Positions 53,118 through 63,727 of a stretch of 64,000 nucleotides of DNA are shown one piece after another (the first letter of the stretch is position 1; each line of letters opens with the position of its first letter). This DNA comes from Microbacterium halotolerans (lineage in GTDB: Bacteria; Actinomycetota; Actinomycetes; Actinomycetales; Microbacteriaceae). Position numbers and translations under genes: made by a program. The notes under the pieces are model-generated. The model was not told the origin of the DNA. It saw nothing but the letters and a program-made list of their open reading frames with translations, and ran no database searches. Where the stretch lies: the NCBI RefSeq assembly GCF_003569805.1, contig NZ_KZ984051.1:1281606-1345605 (forward strand). Reading direction: 5' to 3'.

Positions 53118-53717
53118 GTGACTCGTCGCCTCCGGATTGCCGCCGTCGCGGCTGCGCTCGTCGTCGGCACCGTGCTCGCCGGATGCTCCTCCGACCCGGT
53201 CGCCGATCAGTACCTCAGCGGCGAGAACAAGGGCTACATCGCCGGCGACTTCCGTGTCGAGGAGGTCCCGATCGACCAGCGCGGCGAGCCGGTCGAATGG
53301 TCGGGGGAGACCGAGCACGGCGATGAGCTCTCCAGCGCGGATACCGCGGGAGACGTCACCGTCGTCAACTTCTGGTACGCCGAATGCGGGCCGTGCATCG
53401 CGGAGGCACCGGATCTCGAACAGGTCTGGCAGGAGTACCAGGACGATGACGTGCAGTTCATCGGCGTGAACACCTACAACCAGGCCGCGACGGCCGCGAG
53501 CTTCGCACGGGACAACGACGTGAGCTATCCGAGCATCATCGACGTGAACACCGGTGCGGTGAAGCTCGCCTTCGCGGCCGAGACACCGATCCAGGCGACC
53601 CCCACGACGCTGGTCCTCGACCGGGAGGGCCGCATCGCTGCACGCATCATCGGCCAGCTCGCCGGCCCTAGTGTGCTCTCGACCCTCGTCGGCGACACCC
53701 TCGAAGAGCAGTCGTGA
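53118..53717 (+). CDS. TlpA/ResA-like thioredoxin-fold lipoprotein
   Basis: A 199-residue lipoprotein (lipobox LAGC, Cys23) with an extracytoplasmic thioredoxin fold. The redox motif CGPC (C90-C93) is in NFWYAECGPCIAEAP and the cis-Pro in QATPTTLVLD. It keeps the CxxCH cysteines of apocytochrome c reduced for heme attachment. First of four clustered System II genes; electrons should come from the CcdA homologue immediately downstream. Confidence 0.92.
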   Translation: MTRRLRIAAVAAALVVGTVLAGCSSDPVADQYLSGENKGYIAGDFRVEEVPIDQRGEPVEWSGETEHGDELSSADTAGDVTVVNFWYAECGPCIAEAPDLEQVWQEYQDDDVQFIGVNTYNQAATAASFARDNDVSYPSIIDVNTGAVKLAFAAETPIQATPTTLVLDREGRIAARIIGQLAGPSVLSTLVGDTLEEQS

Positions 53718-53745
53718 TGCGCCGATCGGGATCGGAGACCGCCTG

Positions 53746-54531
53746 ATGGACGCGGGAACCCTCGTCTTCGACGGCGCACTGTGGCTGGCGCTGCCCGTCG
53801 CGCTGCTGGCCGGACTGCTGTCGTTCCTCTCGCCGTGCATCCTTCCGCTCGTGCCCGGCTATCTCGGCTTCATCGCCGGCACCGTCGCGCCGAAGAACCA
53901 GGTGTCGGTGCTGCCAAGCGACAGTGCCACCGATGCCCCGTCGCGGGGTCGGTTGGTCGGAGGGGTGCTGCTGTTCATCGCAGGCTTCACTCTCGTGTTC
54001 GTCACGGTGATCGTGCTCGGCGGAGTGGCAGGCGGCGCCATGAGCCAGTTCAACCTGCAGTACGGCGACCTCGTCACACGCGTCCTCGGCGTCGTCGTGA
54101 TCGCACTCGGCCTGGTGTTCCTCGGTCTGTTCGGCTTCGCGCAGCGAATCGCACGGCCGCAGATCAGGGGCAACATCGGCCTCGTCGGTGCCCCGTTGCT
54201 CGGCATCGCGCTCGGTCTCGGCTGGGCGCCATGCATCGGTCCGACGCTCGCGGCGATCTTCGCCGTCGCCTACAACACCGAAGACGGCCTGCGTGCCGGG
54301 CTGCTCGGTCTGGTCTACTCGCTCGGCCTCGGCATTCCCTTCGTGCTGCTCGCCCTCGGCTTCGGCTGGGCGTCGCGATCTGTCGGATTCCTCCGGCGCC
54401 ACGTGCGAGCGATCAACATCATCGGCGGCGCGCTCCTGGTCGCGCTCGGTGTGCTGATGGTCAGCGGCGTGTGGACCATGCTCATGCTCCACCTGCAGGG
54501 GGTGTTCGCCAGTGTCCCGACCATCCTCTGA
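53746..54531 (+). CDS. ccdA: CcdA-type cytochrome c biogenesis membrane protein
   Basis: A 261-residue thiol-disulfide transporter with six membrane helices and the two cysteines that shuttle electrons across the membrane, C31 in SFLSPCILPLVPGYLGF and C163 in GWAPCIGPTL. It passes reductant from cytoplasmic thioredoxin to the TlpA-like protein. The ATG at 53746 has CGGAGA upstream. The ResB gene start overlaps its end by 20 bp. Confidence 0.94.
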   Translation: MDAGTLVFDGALWLALPVALLAGLLSFLSPCILPLVPGYLGFIAGTVAPKNQVSVLPSDSATDAPSRGRLVGGVLLFIAGFTLVFVTVIVLGGVAGGAMSQFNLQYGDLVTRVLGVVVIALGLVFLGLFGFAQRIARPQIRGNIGLVGAPLLGIALGLGWAPCIGPTLAAIFAVAYNTEDGLRAGLLGLVYSLGLGIPFVLLALGFGWASRSVGFLRRHVRAINIIGGALLVALGVLMVSGVWTMLMLHLQGVFASVPTIL

Positions 54532-56470
54532 CGACGCGGAGAAGGCGACTCCGGATGGCGAAGGGTCGAAAGCGGCTGACCAGTCGAAGATGAACCCCGA
54601 CTCGTCCGACCCCCGTCGGCCCAGCGACCATTTCGATTCGGCCGACCTCTCGGCATCCGGCGCCTCCGAGCCATCCGGCGCCGTCTCTCCCGCATTGGGC
54701 ATCGTCGGCTGGGCGCGCTGGGCGTGGCGCCAGCTCACCAGCATGCGGACCGCGCTGGTGCTCCTGCTCCTGCTCGCCGTCGCGGCCGTGCCAGGTTCGC
54801 TGTTCCCGCAGCGCTCAGCAGATCCGAATGGCGTCACGCAGTATCAGAGCGATCATCCGGACATCTTCGGGTTCCTCGACAGCATCTCGATGTTCGACGT
54901 GTACCACTCGCCATGGTTCTCGGCGATCTACATCCTGCTGTTCGTTTCGCTGATCGGCTGCATCCTGCCTCGCACGAAGCACCATCTGAAGGCGCTGCGC
55001 TCGCGCCCGCCGCGCACGCCGGCGCGGCTCGGCCGACTTGCCGACTTCCGCTCGGAGACGGCGGATGTCGATGCAGAGGAGGCGATCGACGCCGCGGCCA
55101 AGCAGCTGCGCGGCGCCGGCTACAGGATCGAGCGCTACGACTCCCCGGCCCGGGGCAAGCGCCCCGCGACCAGGAGCGTGTCGGCCGAGCGAGGCTATCT
55201 GCGCGAGACCGGGAACCTCGTCTTCCACGCGGCGCTCGTCGGCGTGCTCGTCGCCGTCGGTATCGGCGGCGCCTTCAAGTACACCGGACAGCGGGTCGTC
55301 GTCGAGGGCACCACCTTCGTGAACACGCTGCTCGACTACTCGTCGATGAACCGCGGACAGGCGGTCGCGGAGGACGCGCTCGAACCGTACGCGATGACGC
55401 TCGACAGCTTCGACGTCACCTACCAGCCTCCCGGCAGCAACGCGATGAGCCAGGCGGGCGACTTCGCGGCCAACGTCACGATCCGTCGCCCTGGTGGGGA
55501 CGAGACATCCGGCGTCGTGAAGGTGAACAGCCCGCTGACGATCGGCGGCGACAGCATCTATCTGCTGGGCAACGGCTACGCCCCGACGATCACGATCCGT
55601 GACGTCGACGACGAGATCATCTACCACGATTCTGTGGCCTTTCTCCCTTCGGGCGATGCGCAGATGACGTCGCAGGGAGTCGTCAAGGTCGCAGACGGAC
55701 TGCCGGAGCAGCTGGGCCTCGTCGGCTTCTTCTATCCGACCGTCGCAGAGCTGGATACGGGTGCGTACGCCTCGCAGTACGGCGATCTGCTCAACCCGCT
55801 GCTCACCCTCGACGTGTATGCAGGCGATCTCGGCATCGACGACGGAACGCCTCGCAATGTGTACGCGCTCGACCCGACCGGCATGGACCGGCTCACGGGC
55901 GGCGACACCGGCGTGGAATCGATCGAACTCGCGCCGGGCGACACGGCCGACCTGCCAGACGGCATGGGGACCATCACGTTCGAGGATGAGACGCCGGAGG
56001 GCACCGACTCCGCGCTGGGCTCGACCGAGTCTGTCAAGCGGTTCGCCTCACTGCAGGTGCATCATGACGCCTCAGCGGTATGGGTGCTCGTCTTCGCCGT
56101 GCTCGCTGTGCTCGGCCTGCTCACGGCACTGTTCGTGCCGCGCCGGCGCATGTGGGTCAAGGCCGTCGAGACCGAAGACGGCGTCGAGCTGGAGTACGCA
56201 GGCCTCGCCCGCGGCGAGGACCCGACGCTGGCCGCTGCGGTCGATCAGATGGCGGAGAAGCACCTCGTCGGCCTCGGCGTCACGCCGAAGGAGCCGGATG
56301 CGGCGGCCGAGCCGGCCGAGCCGGATGGCGCGCGGGAGACAGTCGAGCCGGATGGGGCTGCTGTGCCGGACGAGGCATCGGATGCTCCGAAGGAGGCTGC
56401 CGCGCCGGAGACGCCGGATGATGCGTCGGACGGACCGCGGCGGGGCGACGCCGCGGGCTCCGGGCGCTGA
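54512..56470 (+). CDS. resB: ResB-family cytochrome c biogenesis protein
   Basis: 652 residues. One membrane helix near 80 (TALVLLLLLAVAAVPGSLFPQR), a second and third by about 245, a large extracytoplasmic domain (about 255-520), and a fourth helix near 530 (VWVLVFAVLAVLGLLTALFVP). A charged Pro/Ala/Glu-rich tail follows. ResB with CcsB forms the System II heme-delivery and cytochrome c synthase complex. GTG start overlapping ccdA. The first ~60 acidic residues and the tail vary in the family. Confidence 0.92.
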   Translation: MSRPSSDDAEKATPDGEGSKAADQSKMNPDSSDPRRPSDHFDSADLSASGASEPSGAVSPALGIVGWARWAWRQLTSMRTALVLLLLLAVAAVPGSLFPQRSADPNGVTQYQSDHPDIFGFLDSISMFDVYHSPWFSAIYILLFVSLIGCILPRTKHHLKALRSRPPRTPARLGRLADFRSETADVDAEEAIDAAAKQLRGAGYRIERYDSPARGKRPATRSVSAERGYLRETGNLVFHAALVGVLVAVGIGGAFKYTGQRVVVEGTTFVNTLLDYSSMNRGQAVAEDALEPYAMTLDSFDVTYQPPGSNAMSQAGDFAANVTIRRPGGDETSGVVKVNSPLTIGGDSIYLLGNGYAPTITIRDVDDEIIYHDSVAFLPSGDAQMTSQGVVKVADGLPEQLGLVGFFYPTVAELDTGAYASQYGDLLNPLLTLDVYAGDLGIDDGTPRNVYALDPTGMDRLTGGDTGVESIELAPGDTADLPDGMGTITFEDETPEGTDSALGSTESVKRFASLQVHHDASAVWVLVFAVLAVLGLLTALFVPRRRMWVKAVETEDGVELEYAGLARGEDPTLAAAVDQMAEKHLVGLGVTPKEPDAAAEPAEPDGARETVEPDGAAVPDEASDAPKEAAAPETPDDASDGPRRGDAAGSGR

Positions 56471-56530
56471 CACAGCGGCGATATCGCCGAGAGTCACGCG
56501 TCGTTCGCTTCGTCTGCGAGTGCGCTGAGC

Positions 56531-56597
56531 CGCGGCAGAATCGTCGAGGCACTGCAGCATCCGGGAGGAGATGCAGCGTGTCCGTGATTCTGCCGCG
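56531..56597. repeat. Palindrome H between resB and ccsB
   Basis: Perfect 12-bp outer arms CGCGGCAGAATC and GATTCTGCCGCG, and inner arms around GCAGCATC/GATGCAGC. Probably ends the resB transcript; ccsB then has its own promoter. Only one copy seen. Confidence 0.6.
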
Positions 56598-56655
56598 TCT
56601 CGAGGGTCGCCCATCTGCGTGTGACGTTCCCTGCTCAGACGCAGGCGCCGAGGCG

Positions 56656-56661
56656 TAGGCT
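56656..56661 (+). promoter_or_regulatory. -10 box of ccsB (leaderless type)
   Basis: TAGGCT, 7 nt, then ATG at 56669. Confidence 0.6.
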
Positions 56662-56668
56662 TCTGCAC

Positions 56669-57694
56669 ATGCCCGACGTCGCCTCCCTCGACACGTACTC
56701 TGTGATTCTCGTGTGGACCGCGATCGCGATCTACACGCTCGCCTTCATCGCCTACGCGGTCGACCTCTCGAAGCGATCACAGGAGTCGATCGAGCAGCAC
56801 GACGCTGCACATTCGCGTCAGCGCGAGAAGATCGGGGCACTGAGCGCCGCCTCGGCGTCGTCCGTCGACGTCGTCTCGCACGCGGCCGACTCGAGCGCGG
56901 CTCCCGTCGGGGCTGCGAAGGCCCCGCGCCGGGTGTTCAGCCGCGTCGGCACGGCTCTCACCGCGCTCGGCTTCCTCATGCACCTCGGTGGCACCCTGCT
57001 GCGGGGCATCGCTGCTGAGCGGGTGCCCTGGTCGAACATGTGGGAGTTCGCCATGACGGGCACCCTCCTGATCATGGCGGTGTACCTCGGCGTGCAGTTC
57101 TGGAAGGACCTGCGTTTCCTCGGCACGTTCATGACCGGTCTCGTCGTCGTGCTGCTGGGCGCCTCGTCGACCTTCTACGTCGCGATCGTGCCCCTGATGG
57201 ATCCGCTGAAGTCGGTGTGGCTGGTCATCCATGTCTTCGTGGCATCGCTCAGCACAGCGTTCCTCGCGCTCGCTTTCGGCCTCAGCGTGATGCAGCTGCT
57301 GCAGGCGCGTCGCGAACGGCTGGCGCTCGTCGCGGCGGAGAACGGCGACGGCCCCAAGCGAAGCTTCCTGCGCACGCTGCCTTCGGCCGAAGCGCTCGAG
57401 GGTCTCGCGTACCGCCTTGCGATAATCGGCTTCATCCTGTGGACCTTCACGCTCATCGCCGGCGCGATCTGGGCGCAGGAAGCCTGGGGTCGCTACTGGG
57501 GCTTCGACGTGAAGGAAGTGTGGACCTTCATCATCTGGGTGCTCTATGCCGGCTACATCCACGCCCGCGCGACTCGCGGCTGGCGCGGCACGCGCTCCGC
57601 GTGGCTCGCGATCGTCGGCTTCGTCGCCGTGATCTTCAACTTCACGATCGTGAATATGTACTTCGACGGACTCCACGCCTACTCCGGCCTCTGA
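56669..57694 (+). CDS. ccsB: CcsB/ResC-type cytochrome c biogenesis protein
   Basis: Heme-handling channel of System II, 341 residues with eight or so membrane helices. Signatures: VPWSNMWEF before the WWD-type segment, then AQEAWGRYWGFDVKEVW (the tryptophan-rich heme-binding motif, with F-D-V where many have W-D-P). Conserved histidines occur in MHLGGTLL, VIHVFVASLS and IHARATRGWRG. An Ala/Ser-rich cytoplasmic loop lies at about 40-90. Start at ATG 56669, 7 nt after TAGGCT; an earlier ATG lies upstream of the -10 box. It completes the tlpA-ccdA-resB-ccsB set. Confidence 0.94.
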   Translation: MPDVASLDTYSVILVWTAIAIYTLAFIAYAVDLSKRSQESIEQHDAAHSRQREKIGALSAASASSVDVVSHAADSSAAPVGAAKAPRRVFSRVGTALTALGFLMHLGGTLLRGIAAERVPWSNMWEFAMTGTLLIMAVYLGVQFWKDLRFLGTFMTGLVVVLLGASSTFYVAIVPLMDPLKSVWLVIHVFVASLSTAFLALAFGLSVMQLLQARRERLALVAAENGDGPKRSFLRTLPSAEALEGLAYRLAIIGFILWTFTLIAGAIWAQEAWGRYWGFDVKEVWTFIIWVLYAGYIHARATRGWRGTRSAWLAIVGFVAVIFNFTIVNMYFDGLHAYSGL

Positions 57695-57988: not shown

Positions 57989-58032
57989 GACACGGGGGTT
58001 CCGTCGCGGGCGGGATTCTGGCATGGTGACGT

Positions 58033-58048
58033 GTGACAGCGCTGTCAC
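58033..58048. promoter_or_regulatory. LacI-family-type operator
   Basis: GTGACAGCGCTGTCAC, a perfect 16-bp palindrome with the AGCGCT centre typical of LacI/GalR-family operators, 112 bp before the start of the GH92 gene. The regulator is not in this window. Confidence 0.65.
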
Positions 58049-58055
58049 GTTCCGT

Positions 58056-58077: not shown

Positions 58078-58159
58078 TCGTGTGGGGCACCTAGGTTCGA
58101 GGTTCCGGCAGGCGTCTGCCCTGACTTCTGTTCCGCCCCCGACCCCTCGGAGATTCCCT

Positions 58160-61100
58160 ATGCCTTCCCCCGAACCAGTGCTGCGCCGTCGCCGCGCTGC
58201 CGTGGCCGCCGGTGTGATCGGCGCGCTCGCCGCTGCATCCGTCGTCACCACCGCTCCCGCTGCGATCGCTGCCGAGGACTCCTCGCTCTCGGCCTTCGAC
58301 GCGGTCGACCAGTTCATCGGAACCGGGATGGACGAGAGCAACAACTCTCGCGGCAACGACCACTACGGCAACACCTTCCCCGGGGCGACCGTGCCGTTCG
58401 GCATGGTGCAGTCGAGCCCGACGACCTACCAGTCGGACAACGGGGAGCAGTTCGGCGGCTACAAGTACGAGGCGGACGAGCTTCGCGGCTTCGGCATGAC
58501 ACGGCTGTCGGGGACCGGCTGCCGCTCCAACTACGGCGGCTTCGACTTCCCCGTCATTCCGTTCACGGGCGAGCTCACGGACGATTCGCTCCCCGTCAAT
58601 CCAGCGAGCGACATCTCCGACTACTTCCTGCCGTTCTCGCATGAGGATGAGACGGCAGAGCCCGGATACTATTCGGTTGCACTCGACTCCGGCGTCGACG
58701 CCGAGCTGACGAGCACAACCCGCACGGCCGTGAGCCGCTACTCGTTCGACGCGGACGCCACCCTGCTCTTCGAGGCGGGAGGGTCCAACAACGAGATCCA
58801 CGCATCCGACATCGCCTTCGATCCGGACACGGGGGAGCTCAGCGGAACGGTCAGCGCGAACATCGTCTGCAACGGCGGCGGGCAGTACACCGCGCACTTC
58901 TCCGCCACCTTCGACCAGCCCGTCGAGTCGTACGGCGTCTGGACACCGGATGGGCTGGAAGCGGGCGGGACCTCGGCCGATGCCTCGTCGAAGCACGGGG
59001 CGGGCGCCTGGGTGAGCTTCGCCGACGGCACCGACGTGACGGCGAAGATCGGTCTCAGCTACGTCTCGGTCGACGGTGCCAGGGCGAACGCGGAGGAGGA
59101 GACCGCCGACCTCACCTTCGAGGAGGTGCGCTCCGACGCAGCGTCGACATGGCAGGAAGCGCTCGGCACGATCGACGCGACAGGGGGCAGCGACGACGAT
59201 CGCATCACCTTCTACACGGCGCTGTACCACGCACTGCTGCATCCGAACACGTTCCAGGACGTCGACGGCACCTACATCGGCTACGACGGCGAGAGCCATA
59301 CGGTCGAGGAAGGGCGCGACTTCTACGTGAACTTCTCCGGCTGGGACACCTACCGCGGGCAGTCGCAGCTCGTGGCGATGGTGTATCCGGATCGCGCGAG
59401 CGACATCAACCAGTCGATCGTCGACATGGTCGAGCAGTCGGGACAATGGACCAGCTGGCCGAGCTACAACCAGGTGCAGACGAAGATGAGCGGCGACTCG
59501 CTGCAGAACATCGTCGCGGCGACCGACGACTTCGGCGCCACCGACTACGACCGCGAGACCGCGCTTTCCACGATGGTCGAGACGCAGACGCTTCCGATGA
59601 CGGACTCCGCCCGTTCCGACGGCGTGATGTACGGCATCCATGGCTGGGTCGACGGCGACCGGCGCGGCGCGGCGACCTCGCGCACCCTGGAGTACACGAG
59701 CAACGACTTCGCCATCGCGCAGCTGGCGCAGCGACTCGGTGACGAGGCGGCGTACGAGACGTTCTCGACGCGCTCGCAGAACTGGAAGAACGTCTTCAAC
59801 TACGCCCGCGAGCACATCGACGCCCGCAACCGCAACGGCTTTCTGAACACCTCCCTCACCACTCAGGGGGCGCAGTTCGAGCAGTCCACAGGGCTGCAGT
59901 ACGGCTTCAACGTGCCGCACAACATGGCGGCGCTGATCGAGGCGCGCGGCGGGACCGATGCGGCCACCGCGGATCTCGACGCACTGCTGGCCGACCTCGA
60001 CGGAGGCGCGTTCAGCGACACCGCCTATCTCGCCAACCAGCCGAGCTTCGGCCTGCCGTGGGTCTACAACTGGCTGCAGGCTCCGCACAAGACGACCGAC
60101 ACGCTGTACCGCGCAGCCGACGAGCTGTTCCGCACCGATCCTGAGGGTCTGTTCGGCAACGACGACCTCGGCTCGCTGAGCGCCTGGTACGTGTGGGCGA
60201 ACCTCGGCATCATGCCGGCGATCTGGGGCACGGCCGACCTCGTCGTGTCCGCCCCCATGTTCGAGCACATCGAGATCTCACCCGTCGGCGCCGAGCGCAC
60301 GATCACGATCGACGCGCCGGGCGCTGGCGAGGACCGCAGGTACACCACCGCGCTCTCGGTGAACGGAGCCCCGCAGACCGCGTCATGGCTCTCGCCCGAG
60401 TTCGCCCGCTCCGGCGGGACGCTCGACTTCACGATGAGCGCAGAGCCCGGAACGTGGGGCACCGGCGCGGACGACGCGCCGCCGTCGTACCCGGCAGGAA
60501 CCGACAGCCCCAACTCGGTCGGGATCACCGACGACGGAGCCGTCAACATGGGCGGCCTCGACGCGGGAGGGATCGGCCTGTCGCGTCAGGACCTCGAGGA
60601 TGCGGGCGTCACCGGCGGCACCCGGCTCCCGATGGGGGAGACCGGGGTCAGCTTCACCTGGCCGGACACGGCCGCAGGCGAGGTCGACCACTGGATCCCC
60701 AGCGGCCAGGTCCTCGAGTTCGGCGACATCGAGGCATCCGGAGTCTCCTTCCTCGGGCTCGCGACGAACGGGCCCTCCCGCGGCACCGCGTCCGTGACGT
60801 ATGCGGACGGCTCGACCCAGGACATCGACGTCCGGTTCACCGACTGGACGTCCGGCAGCATCGAGCCTGGCAACATCCGGATGATCGATCTCACGAAGCG
60901 CAACAAGCTCGACGGCGGATACGACACCGCGGCGCCGACCGTGTACGGCACGGCCGTCGTACCGCTCGACGAGAGCAAGAAGGTGCGCAGCGTCACCCTG
61001 CCGACCGAGGTCAGCCGCGGGATCATGCACGTCTTCGACGTCGCCCTGCAGCCGATCGCCGACGGCGAGGAGCCGACGGATCCGGAGCTCCCGACCAGGC

Positions 61101-63727
61101 CGGACCCGACCGACCCCACGGAGCCGACGACGCCAGACCCTGTCGACATCGACGGCGAGTCGGTCATGGCGGAGGACGCCGAATGGCGCTTCCACGACAC
61201 GGAGGAGGACCCGGCCGCCGGCCTCGATGACAAGACGGCATGGACCGCGGCGGACTTCGACGATTCGGGTTGGAAGACCGGAACGACGAGCTTCGGTGCG
61301 AAGCGCGGAGATATCGCTGATCTCGGCGGCGGCTTCACTCCGAACACGCTGGTGTCGCAGTACAAGGAGGACGGGTCGAACGTCGAGGCGATGTTCTTCC
61401 GCGGCTCGTTCGAGCTGTCGGAGGGCGACCTCGAGCTGGTCACGCAGCTGAACGGCGAGCTCGCCTACGACGACGGCGCCCGCGTGTACGTCAACGGTGA
61501 GATGGTCGGCGGCTTCCGCGACGCGCGCATCGACGACGGCGAAGGGAATATGGTCTACGCGGGCGACAACGAGTCGGCACCGAGCACCGATTCGTTCAGC
61601 GTGCCGGCGGAGCACCTTCAGGCCGGGACCAACGAGATCGCAGTCCAGGTGCACAACACCAACGCCGGCAGCTCCGACATCTACATGCAGCTGCTCTCGC
61701 TCACCGTGGTGGCGAAGGACGCCCCTGCGGCGATCTCCGACGTCGTGCTGAGCCCCGGCATCGACCAGACGCAGCGCAACCTCACCTTCTACACCGACCG
61801 CGAGGTCGACACCCAGGTGCAGATCGCGCCGGTGGACGCGCGCACCGGGGCGGAGTTCCCTGTCGCGGATGCCCGCGTCATCGACGCAGCAACGGAGGCG
61901 ACGCGCGACGGCCGATTCTCCAATCGCGCTGTCCTCGACGCCCTCGACGAGGACACCAGCTACATGTACCGCGTCGGCAGCGACGATTCCGGGTGGTCGC
62001 GCTCCTACGAGCTCTGGACGGGAACGTATGACGACACCCACAGCTTCGTCTTCTTGGCCGACTCGCAGATCGGCGCGTCGGGGAACTGGGAAGCCGACGG
62101 CGAGCGCTGGTCGGCCGCGCTGGATCAGATCGACGCGCACGAGAAGGACGCGTCGATGATCGTCAGCGGGGGCGACCAGGTCAATTCGCACCGGTCGGAG
62201 GACGAGTACCGGGTTCTGCTGGAGCCGGAGCTGCTGACGCAGCTGCCCTTCGCCCCCACGATCGGCAACCACGACAATCAGTCCGACCAGTACAACTCGC
62301 ACTTCTTCACGCCGAATCAGTCGGAGACGCACGGCTACGAGGACGCGGAGGAGCGCGCGGGCGGCGACTACTGGCACATCTACAACGGCGTGCTCTACCT
62401 GAACATCAACTCGAATGCTCGCAGCGAGAACGAGGAGGACCACATCGCCTTCATGCGGGAGGTCGTCGAGGAGCAGGGTGAGAACGCCGACTGGATCGTC
62501 GCCGTCATGCACCATTCGCTGTACTCGGCGGCGTTCCACTCGCTCGAGCAGGATGTGATCGAGCGCCGTGAGGCACTGTCGCCCGCGTTCAGTGAGCTGG
62601 GCGTCGACCTGGTGCTCGCAGGCCACGACCACAGCTACACGCGCAGCTATCTGATGGAGGGCACCTCGCCCGCCGGCGACCTCGAAGCGCAGGAGCAGTC
62701 GGGAGTGACCCTCACAGCCGAAGAGGGGCAGGTGCTCTACGTCACGGGCAACTCGTCGACGGGCAGCAAGTTCTACGGCATCGACGAGAACTCGCCCGAG
62801 GCCGCGGTGAAGTTCCAGTCGAACGAGCCGCAGTACACGGATGTCGACGTCTCGCCGGAGGCGGTCACGCTCACGACGTACAAGACGATGGACCGAACGG
62901 TCGTCGACGAGGTGACGCTGACCCGCGCGGTCGACGACGAGACCGGCCCGGTGCTCTCCGGCGTCGAGGCGACGCAGACGCCGCAGGGCCAGCCGTTCGA
63001 TGCGATGGCAGGCGTGAGCGCGACCGACGAGATCGACGGCGACGTCACGGACGCGATCGAGGTGACCGGCGAGGTCGACACGCGGGTGCCAGGCGAGTAC
63101 GCCATCACGTACCTGGCGGTCGACGGGTCCGGCAACGAGACGCGGGCCGAGCGCACCGTGACGGTGACCGCGGTCGAGCCGACGTTCATGGGCGTTCCGG
63201 ATGCGAGGACGGTCGTCGAGGGCGAGGAGTTCGATGAGATGGAGGGGATCTCGGCGATCGATGCGAACGGGGACGACATCACGGATCTCATCGAGGTCGA
63301 GATGGCGTCTGCGCAGTCCGCAGGCTCGGCCCGACTCGTCGCGCCGACGGCGGGAGACTACGCCCTGGTCTACTCCGTCACGGACGAGTACGGCACGACC
63401 GCGACAGCCGAGACGGCCGTGACGGTCGAAGCGGCTGAGGAGCCGACCGACCCCGGTGACGGTGACGGGACCGATGGTGGGACTGACGGTGACGGAACCG
63501 ATGGCGGAGGCGACGGTGAAGCGACCGACGGCGCCGGAACCGACGGTGACGCGACGGACGCCGGTGACGGCGACACCGACGGTCAGAGCGGCGCCGACGC
63601 TTCGGACGGCATCGACGAGTTGCCTGCAACCGGCGGGACCGTCTCGGCCGTGTGGGGCGTCCTCGGGATCCTCGCCATGCTCACCGGCGCGGGCATCCTG
63701 CTCGGCCGCCGCGTGACGCGCACCTGA
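58160..63727 (+). CDS. Wall-anchored GH92 mannosidase / metallophosphoesterase fusion
   Basis: A 1,855-residue secreted enzyme. Signal peptide to about A38; GH92 domain about 45-765; unassigned beta-sandwich about 780-970; jelly-roll domain about 990-1187; FN3-like domain of purple acid phosphatases about 1190-1290. The metallophosphoesterase, about 1293-1530, has all metal blocks: D1301 in LADSQ, D1339 in GGDQ, N1370-H1371 in GNHD, H1451-H1452, and H1489/H1491 in GHDH. Two DUF5011-like Ig domains lie at about 1594-1760, then an Asp/Gly/Thr linker, LPATG at 1821-1825, a membrane helix and a basic end. In the GH92 part the base motif GNDDLGSLSAWYV is intact, but the catalytic-acid Glu of the usual F-x-E-G motif is Gln575 (FEQSTGLQY). 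GH92 enzymes with Gln there cleave mannose-phospho-mannose. Predicted role: uncapping and dephosphorylating phosphomannan. The ATG at 58160 follows GGAG. Confidence 0.88.
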   Translation: MPSPEPVLRRRRAAVAAGVIGALAAASVVTTAPAAIAAEDSSLSAFDAVDQFIGTGMDESNNSRGNDHYGNTFPGATVPFGMVQSSPTTYQSDNGEQFGGYKYEADELRGFGMTRLSGTGCRSNYGGFDFPVIPFTGELTDDSLPVNPASDISDYFLPFSHEDETAEPGYYSVALDSGVDAELTSTTRTAVSRYSFDADATLLFEAGGSNNEIHASDIAFDPDTGELSGTVSANIVCNGGGQYTAHFSATFDQPVESYGVWTPDGLEAGGTSADASSKHGAGAWVSFADGTDVTAKIGLSYVSVDGARANAEEETADLTFEEVRSDAASTWQEALGTIDATGGSDDDRITFYTALYHALLHPNTFQDVDGTYIGYDGESHTVEEGRDFYVNFSGWDTYRGQSQLVAMVYPDRASDINQSIVDMVEQSGQWTSWPSYNQVQTKMSGDSLQNIVAATDDFGATDYDRETALSTMVETQTLPMTDSARSDGVMYGIHGWVDGDRRGAATSRTLEYTSNDFAIAQLAQRLGDEAAYETFSTRSQNWKNVFNYAREHIDARNRNGFLNTSLTTQGAQFEQSTGLQYGFNVPHNMAALIEARGGTDAATADLDALLADLDGGAFSDTAYLANQPSFGLPWVYNWLQAPHKTTDTLYRAADELFRTDPEGLFGNDDLGSLSAWYVWANLGIMPAIWGTADLVVSAPMFEHIEISPVGAERTITIDAPGAGEDRRYTTALSVNGAPQTASWLSPEFARSGGTLDFTMSAEPGTWGTGADDAPPSYPAGTDSPNSVGITDDGAVNMGGLDAGGIGLSRQDLEDAGVTGGTRLPMGETGVSFTWPDTAAGEVDHWIPSGQVLEFGDIEASGVSFLGLATNGPSRGTASVTYADGSTQDIDVRFTDWTSGSIEPGNIRMIDLTKRNKLDGGYDTAAPTVYGTAVVPLDESKKVRSVTLPTEVSRGIMHVFDVALQPIADGEEPTDPELPTRPDPTDPTEPTTPDPVDIDGESVMAEDAEWRFHDTEEDPAAGLDDKTAWTAADFDDSGWKTGTTSFGAKRGDIADLGGGFTPNTLVSQYKEDGSNVEAMFFRGSFELSEGDLELVTQLNGELAYDDGARVYVNGEMVGGFRDARIDDGEGNMVYAGDNESAPSTDSFSVPAEHLQAGTNEIAVQVHNTNAGSSDIYMQLLSLTVVAKDAPAAISDVVLSPGIDQTQRNLTFYTDREVDTQVQIAPVDARTGAEFPVADARVIDAATEATRDGRFSNRAVLDALDEDTSYMYRVGSDDSGWSRSYELWTGTYDDTHSFVFLADSQIGASGNWEADGERWSAALDQIDAHEKDASMIVSGGDQVNSHRSEDEYRVLLEPELLTQLPFAPTIGNHDNQSDQYNSHFFTPNQSETHGYEDAEERAGGDYWHIYNGVLYLNINSNARSENEEDHIAFMREVVEEQGENADWIVAVMHHSLYSAAFHSLEQDVIERREALSPAFSELGVDLVLAGHDHSYTRSYLMEGTSPAGDLEAQEQSGVTLTAEEGQVLYVTGNSSTGSKFYGIDENSPEAAVKFQSNEPQYTDVDVSPEAVTLTTYKTMDRTVVDEVTLTRAVDDETGPVLSGVEATQTPQGQPFDAMAGVSATDEIDGDVTDAIEVTGEVDTRVPGEYAITYLAVDGSGNETRAERTVTVTAVEPTFMGVPDARTVVEGEEFDEMEGISAIDANGDDITDLIEVEMASAQSAGSARLVAPTAGDYALVYSVTDEYGTTATAETAVTVEAAEEPTDPGDGDGTDGGTDGDGTDGGGDGEATDGAGTDGDATDAGDGDTDGQSGADASDGIDELPATGGTVSAVWGVLGILAMLTGAGILLGRRVTRT

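Follow-up and report, generated by a model that had tools for sequence, protein, structure and literature searches.

A predicted wall-anchored fusion of a glutamine-type GH92 and a metallophosphoesterase in Microbacterium halotolerans, a candidate two-step enzyme for mannosyl phosphodiesters

Architecture of the fusion gene

The 64,000-nucleotide stretch of the Microbacterium halotolerans genome analysed here (contig NZ_KZ984051.1, positions 1,281,606 to 1,345,605, forward strand; hereafter the window) carries a gene in which a glycoside hydrolase of family GH92 is followed, in the same polypeptide, by a metallophosphoesterase (MPE; Table 1). The initial annotation had described a single uninterrupted frame for a secreted GH92-phosphatase protein with an LPATG anchor, and this was borne out by the frame, which runs from an ATG at 58160 (an alternative in-frame GTG start lies upstream, at 58082) to a stop at 63727, and by Pfam and NCBIfam matches, with scores for the GH92 N-terminal and catalytic domains (199 and 403.6 bits) above the curated cut-offs. 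The FN3-like domain that it mentioned is present and corresponds to Pur_ac_phosph_N (40.5 bits, cut-off 30), and its two beta domains to the ABD2-like domain and to the preceding region without a Pfam match. Direct reading of the sequence places the LPATG motif at 63620-63634; the NCBIfam model TIGR01167 passes its cut-off (17.5 against 15.9 bits) and Pfam PF00746 fails (17.0 against 20). By the sequence criteria of LPXTG motif, hydrophobic stretch and positive tail, the fusion protein is a sortase-anchored surface protein.

A database search for the same domain order, suggested with the initial annotation, found it again in Frigoribacterium sp. JB110 (94% identity in the best segment, residues 1-1745 matched) and in genome G056 (71% identity, residues 6-1829). 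Both copies have the order GH92N, GH92, Pur_ac_phosph_N, Metallophos and Ig-like, with the ABD2 model unlisted at E 0.01 in either. Because the arrangement recurs in these two relatives, the fusion is not an assembly accident. From these two copies, the host is probably a relative of JB110, a strain whose family label is Microbacteriaceae. The predicted model of the beta-sandwich region resembles AziU3 of Streptomyces sahachiroi, with 22% identity.

Table 1 Features of the fusion gene and its upstream region, in window coordinates.
Feature	Position	Strand	Evidence
Possible operator/repressor site, 18-base near-palindrome TGTGACAGCGCTGTCACG	58032..58049	+	Pattern search; JB110 alignment
Whole gene, GH92-phosphatase fusion protein, 1,855 aa	58160..63727	+	ORF list; orthologs L273 (JB110), L028
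Signal peptide, residues 1-38 (RRRR, hydrophobic stretch, A-x-A site)	58160..58273	+	By-eye reading of translation
GH92 N-terminal domain, residues 49-300	58304..59059	+	PF17678, E 1.4e-58
GH92 catalytic domain, residues 306-760	59075..60439	+	PF07971, E 1.6e-120; model like solved GH92s, Z 39-45
Lys442, column of Cys399/Cys393 of BT3130/BT3990, beside the scissile bond	59483..59485	+	Alignments; PMC5930347 (available text)
Gln575, general-acid column (Glu535/531/533 in BT3130/BT3965/BT3990; Gln in CcMan5)	59882..59884	+	Alignments; PMC5930347 numbering (available text)
Asp669, general-base column (Asp637/633 in BT3130/BT3965), kept	60164..60166	+	Alignments; PMC5930347 numbering (available text)
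Beta-sandwich domain, residues about 799-975, without Pfam match	60554..61084	+	Predicted model; VIA-align Z 16.5 to AziU3
ABD2-like beta domain (beta-galactosidase second all-beta domain), residues 1063-1168	61346..61663	+	PF13364, 26.6 bits, cut-off 23
Purple acid phosphatase N-terminal (FN3-like) domain, Pur_ac_phosph_N, residues 1194-1284	61739..62011	+	PF16656, E 4e-10
MPE domain, Metallophos, residues 1296-1493	62045..62638	+	PF00149, E 5.8e-13; motifs
Two Ig-like domains (Bact_surface_Ig), first 1599-1669, end of second approximate	62954..63430	+	PF16403, 2 stretches
LPATG sortase signal, hydrophobic stretch and positive tail	63620..63724	+	TIGR01167 above cut-off; direct sequence reading

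Catalytic residues of the GH92 half

The catalytic columns were fixed by the BT3965 chain, in which residues 531 and 633 of the alignment are Glu and Asp, respectively. Set against the general acid of BT3130, BT3965 and BT3990 and the general base of BT3130 and BT3965, as assigned in the available text of PMC5930347, the window's enzyme keeps the base aspartate and has Gln575 where Glu-type alpha-mannosidases have their glutamate. The Glu of a TLEY motif, which as general acid would make this a Glu-type GH92, was ruled out by comparing the residue numbers in the available text of that paper with the alignments. Glutamine in the same column is found in CcMan5 (or CcGH92; 2xsg, 4aq0) of Cellulosimicrobium cellulans, at chain position 536 of 2xsg; the correspondence was established through locus L025, whose alignment to CcMan5 scores 854 bits and which was in turn aligned to the window's GH92. 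The two proteins also share the GH92 fold, and CcMan5 has an Arg near the place of Lys442. They differ in that CcMan5 scores about 135 bits to the window's GH92, falls in a separate clade and has N-D before the base region where the window has D-D; its solved construct is without a phosphatase, and its relatives in G118, G173 and G210 carry a PAP2 domain. Though outside the CcMan5 clade by descent, the window's GH92 may work like CcMan5.

The predicted GH92 model (pLDDT 77) has the two-subdomain fold, with a best Foldseek E of 2.2e-51 and Z scores of 44.6 to 2wvy and 39.0 to 2xsg. BT3130, BT3965, BT3990, BT2199, NnGH92 and EfMan-I resemble the window's enzyme in fold (Z about 39-45), in the base Asp and in the Met under the sugar, but the first three and NnGH92 have a Glu general acid (PMC5930347 and PMC10167667, respectively, available text). 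Glutamine variants of the acid in other GH92s are described as strongly impaired, though not always dead, on alpha-1,2-mannobiose (PMC10167667, available text), which agrees with Gln being poor for ordinary alpha-mannosides; CcMan5 is reported to cleave a mannosyl phosphodiester (PMC5930347, available text).

A further difference from the Bacteroides enzymes concerns Lys442, the residue before Met443. BT3130, BT3965 and BT3990 have Cys in this column, and Cys399 of BT3130 and Cys393 of BT3990 lie between the -1 and +1 subsites (PMC5930347, available text). Lys or Arg occupies column 442 in 18 of the 19 aligned members of the window's clade, the exception (L355) having Phe with an adjacent Arg, and all 12 members of the CcMan5 clade have Arg one column further on.

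The metallophosphoesterase half

The PF00149 match scores 50.1 bits (cut-off 21.5) and includes the motifs D1301-x-Q1303, GD1339, GNH1371D, H1451 and GH1489DH1491. The initial annotation had called the domain a complete calcineurin-type phosphoesterase; the Metallophos assignment and the GD, GNHD, H and GHDH motifs stood, but "complete" was slightly overstated, motif I being Asp-x-Gln (D1301-S-Q1303) where MPEs usually have Asp-x-His, so that it is the profile match that places the domain in the superfamily. Neither the Asp nor the Gln varies among the five aligned sequences (the window and its four relatives). The domain is like purple acid phosphatases (PAPs) and calcineurin-like phosphoesterases in having a PAP N-terminal domain followed by Metallophos with the GD, GNHD, H and GHDH motifs; it differs from the PAPs in motif I and scores about 24 bits to those of plants.

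MPEs of this kind, searched with the window's domain as probe and with at most four candidates scored per genome, were found at 200 bits or more in 47 of the 299 genomes of the window's taxonomic family. At six loci (L023-L026, L040, L041) a small gene, by eye a putative lipoprotein, adjoins the MPE gene, and the next gene at L025 (genus g34) is that of a HupE/UreJ_2 protein.

Acid residue and linked phosphatases

GH92 occurs in 78 of these 299 genomes, with 121 distinct domains, of which 100 have Glu (Glu-type) and 21 have Gln (Gln-type) at the acid column; the base Asp is kept in all 121. The linked phosphatases sought were MPE and PAP2. Three of the 21 Gln-type domains are fused to an MPE (the window, G056, G048), three to PAP2 (G118, G173, G210), and five adjoin an MPE gene on the same strand (G033, G108, G165, G216, G280). 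Flanks of about 9 kb, short on one side in a few cases (L212, L230, L247), were scanned for 64 of the 100 Glu-type loci, the other 36 being 35 loci of a short type (about 722 residues) and locus L156 of genus g36. A fused or same-strand MPE was found in none of the 64. Phosphatase linkage thus stands at 11/21 for Gln-type against 0/64 for Glu-type (Fisher p 1.7e-8, kinship ignored). At L227, among the scanned Glu-type loci, a weak opposite-strand MPE match (26 bits) lies 4.5 kb away.

The PAP2 probe, which was built from two of the frames that it matches, gave matches in only four of 6,965 frames, all of them Gln-type GH92s. By eye, the PAP2 domains show the motifs KX6RP, PSGH and RX5H. In genus g34, the GH92 beside an MPE gene is of the CcMan5 type, scoring 854 bits to CcMan5 and 221 to the next kind of structure. 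MPEs that adjoin CcMan5-type genes share 42-44% identity with the MPE half of the window's fusion, and all 11 genomes with a CcMan5-type GH92 also hold an MPE at 200 bits or more (p 5e-10 against the overall frequency, kinship ignored).

The association extends to named relatives, for which the best 80 of 585 loci were examined. Twelve are Gln-type, five of these being fused to a phosphatase: an MPE in JB110, Streptomyces ruber, S. sedi and Phytoactinopolyspora endophytica (in the last across a run of N), and PAP2 in Actinomyces polynesiensis. No MPE was found within the examined DNA of the 68 Glu-type loci. In a class-level sample, where 79 of 296 genomes matched and the 30 best loci were examined with 1.5 kb flanks, further MPE fusions were found in G522 and G490.

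Pfam was run on a few neighbours of Gln-type genes. Two genes without a fused phosphatase have glycoside hydrolase neighbours: GH76 adjoins the gene of Streptomyces sp. SPB074, and GH64 lies with a GH16-like gene near that of S. althioticus. GH76, GH64 and GH16 are families with fungal-wall substrates (mannan, beta-glucan). CBM6 modules are present in CcMan5-clade proteins of this survey; such modules were tested in a C. cellulans GH92, where one bound yeast mannan (PMC5798181, available text).

Phylogeny of the two halves

A GH92 tree of 88 sequences, comprising 31 Gln-type rows (the 21 of the family and 10 of the 12 named) and 57 hand-chosen Glu-type rows, shows three origins of the glutamine: the CcMan5 clade, the window's clade and a third clade. 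Two named loci were left out, one starting at a contig end (L278) and one interrupted by a run of N (L281). Phosphatase linkage changes seven times on this tree, all linked rows falling within the CcMan5 and window's clades. Members of the third clade (L295, L217, L218, L373-L378, L380) have a GFAQG acid motif and, in 10 of 10, Val at column 442, like the neighbouring Glu-type GH92s.

In a tree of 35 MPEs, the fused domains fall into two groups, the fused state must have changed at least twice to fit the supported branches, and the window's MPE type nests with stand-alone and CcMan5-adjacent MPEs. Two unrelated phosphatases joined to two separately evolved Gln lineages look like convergence.

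Upstream region and host genome

The near-palindrome upstream of the gene is the one match in the window at three or fewer mismatches, against a chance expectation of 0.02, and its counterpart at the aligned place in JB110 is a perfect palindrome; it is a possible repressor site. A repeat resembling the Pho box, searched as a consensus pattern, was discarded as a candidate upstream element, its four matches in the window comparing with 4.6 by chance and none lying upstream of the gene. An Rfam scan of the window at gathering scores gave no match. The gene is flanked by a cytochrome c assembly gene on one side and a convergent gene on the other, and a cytochrome c biogenesis cluster with DsbD_TM, ResB and Cytochrom_C_asm proteins occupies 53671-57694.

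Elsewhere, the host has a second GH92 (L036:6914-12937, minus strand), a Glu-type protein of 2,007 aa with F5/8C and PKD domains. On its contig C5 (L211:3327-11207, minus strand), a 2,626-aa protein has two Metallophos stretches, a purple-acid-phosphatase N-domain, FN3 and DUF2341.

Discussion

We consider it probable, from the residues and arrangements described above, that the fusion protein is a single secreted, sortase-anchored bifunctional enzyme combining a mannosyl-phosphodiester hydrolase with a phosphomonoesterase. The Gln-type GH92 would hydrolyse alpha-mannosyl phosphodiesters (Man-alpha-1-P-R), for which a phosphate leaving group would need no proton donor and Lys442 could bind the phosphate. 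Tiels et al. are said to have linked, in 2012, the glutamine of CcMan5 to such a leaving group. Inverting hydrolysis would release mannose and expose a phosphomonoester on the glycan (R-phosphate), which the MPE would then take off, so that the host would obtain mannose and phosphate and the glycan would be unblocked for further trimming. By analogy with CcMan5, the natural substrate is likely fungal or yeast phosphomannan. The two-step reading had already been put forward in the initial annotation, and it is now considerably strengthened by the glutamine shared with CcMan5, the cation at the scissile bond, the recurrent joining to phosphatases and the lack of a fused or same-strand MPE in the scanned Glu-type loci; its extension to the degradation of yeast wall glycans is weakened by a host that is not a full mannan degrader.

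The initial annotation knew of no described two-step enzyme of this kind, and a full-text literature search largely confined to papers outside subscription journals found none with a GH92-phosphatase fusion in its title or the opening of its abstract. The sole paper with both "GH92" and "metallophosphoesterase", PMC10434189, has iron deficiency as its subject in the available text. The nearest described sequence of steps is the yeast-mannan pathway of Bacteroides thetaiotaomicron, in which, according to the available text of PMC10154615, a GH38 removes the phosphate-attached mannose and phosphatases remove the phosphate, as separate enzymes inside the cell. That organism acts on imported fragments with a GH38, whereas here one wall-anchored protein with a GH92 would perform both steps.

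For the lineages as a whole, the balance tips slightly toward convergence on what could be called phosphomannan erasers. At least two GH92 lineages would have exchanged the acid for Gln, would carry a phosphate-binding cation and would have become mannosyl-phosphodiester hydrolases, and would then have recruited phosphomonoesterases (two kinds of MPE, with PAP2 in both lineages) into the same protein or the next gene.

Several observations weigh against these proposals. The cation at column 442 is not diagnostic alone, being present in 5 of 76 Glu-type rows: four of a short kind have Arg there, with an otherwise different motif, and the nearest Glu-type relative of the window's clade (L035:9390) has Lys, so that the cation may predate the glutamine. 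The GH92 model is poor exactly around Lys442 and Gln575, and the MPE model, predicted from a four-sequence alignment, is unusable (pLDDT 40.6). Ten of the 21 Gln-type GH92s of the family have neither MPE nor PAP2 within the scanned flanks; nor was either found in those of the third Gln clade, which is also the clade without a cation at column 442. At three loci of genus g36 (L154, L155, L156), a Glu-type GH92 has as its neighbour an opposite-strand gene for a single-domain MPE (325 aa in complete copies), and with these entered as 3/64, though the third lies outside the 64, the Fisher p becomes 4e-6. A descent-aware test has three independent pairs, with which a sign test cannot reach significance, and the GH92 tree is a quick one without bootstrap, with long branches flagged, the CcMan5 clade among them. 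The host genome gave no match to GH76 or GH125 (GH38 and GH99 were outside the search). We therefore rejected the idea that the host degrades yeast mannan in full; it probably does no more than trim side chains. A CcMan5-clade enzyme elsewhere in the host was also sought and not found, the best scores being those of the window gene (125 bits) and of the second, Glu-type GH92 (78 bits).

The missing GH76 and GH125 would also suit a GH92 half that, weak or dead as an enzyme, serves as a mannan-binding module and brings a general phosphatase to fungal walls, where it would scavenge phosphate, and the Enterococcus faecalis E494Q mutant was, according to the title of entry 7fe2, solved in complex. 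Retention of the base Asp throughout the family, the many GH92-domain positions that are invariant among the window's relatives, and the activity on a mannosyl phosphodiester described for CcMan5, with the same Gln (PMC5930347, available text), make such a role quite unlikely. Only a little less doubtful is a protein whose two domains act on different parts of a polymer and not in sequence, the GH92 cutting ordinary alpha-mannosides or some other mannosyl ester and the MPE cutting other phosphodiesters, such as ethanolamine phosphate or cyclic nucleotides. MPEs are versatile, and the best NCBIfam match of the MPE region is a cyclic-nucleotide phosphodiesterase, albeit a weak one (28 bits, cut-off 400). 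The glutamine at the acid column speaks against ordinary alpha-mannosides as the substrate. PAP2, whose known members are mainly phosphomonoesterases, replaces the MPE in A. polynesiensis and is joined to the GH92 in three proteins of the CcMan5 clade; because it stands in the MPE's place, monoester hydrolysis would be the shared second step.

It is very improbable that two general scavenging halves were simply joined by chance in module-rich surface proteins. Actinobacterial surface proteins often show domain shuffling, the MPE type in question is widespread and almost half of the Gln-type GH92s of the family have no linked phosphatase, but chance joining fits poorly with the scanned Glu-type loci, where no fused or same-strand MPE was found, and with two unrelated phosphatases in two separate Gln clades.

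The specificity of GH92 enzymes is hard to read from sequence, and the present analysis offers a residue signature for the members that cut phosphodiesters: if the convergent class is real, Gln together with Lys or Arg would predict phosphodiester specificity across GH92, and the window's clade would be a second, separately evolved lineage beside CcMan5. A bacterial glycosidase was reportedly used, judging by the title of the 2012 work of Tiels et al., to expose mannose-6-phosphate on lysosomal enzymes made in yeast, and further uncapping GH92s whose phosphatase domains can be separated could prove useful in practice. For the actinobacteria that carry it, a single protein that both uncaps and dephosphorylates phosphomannan would explain how mannose and phosphate are gained from fungal glycans.

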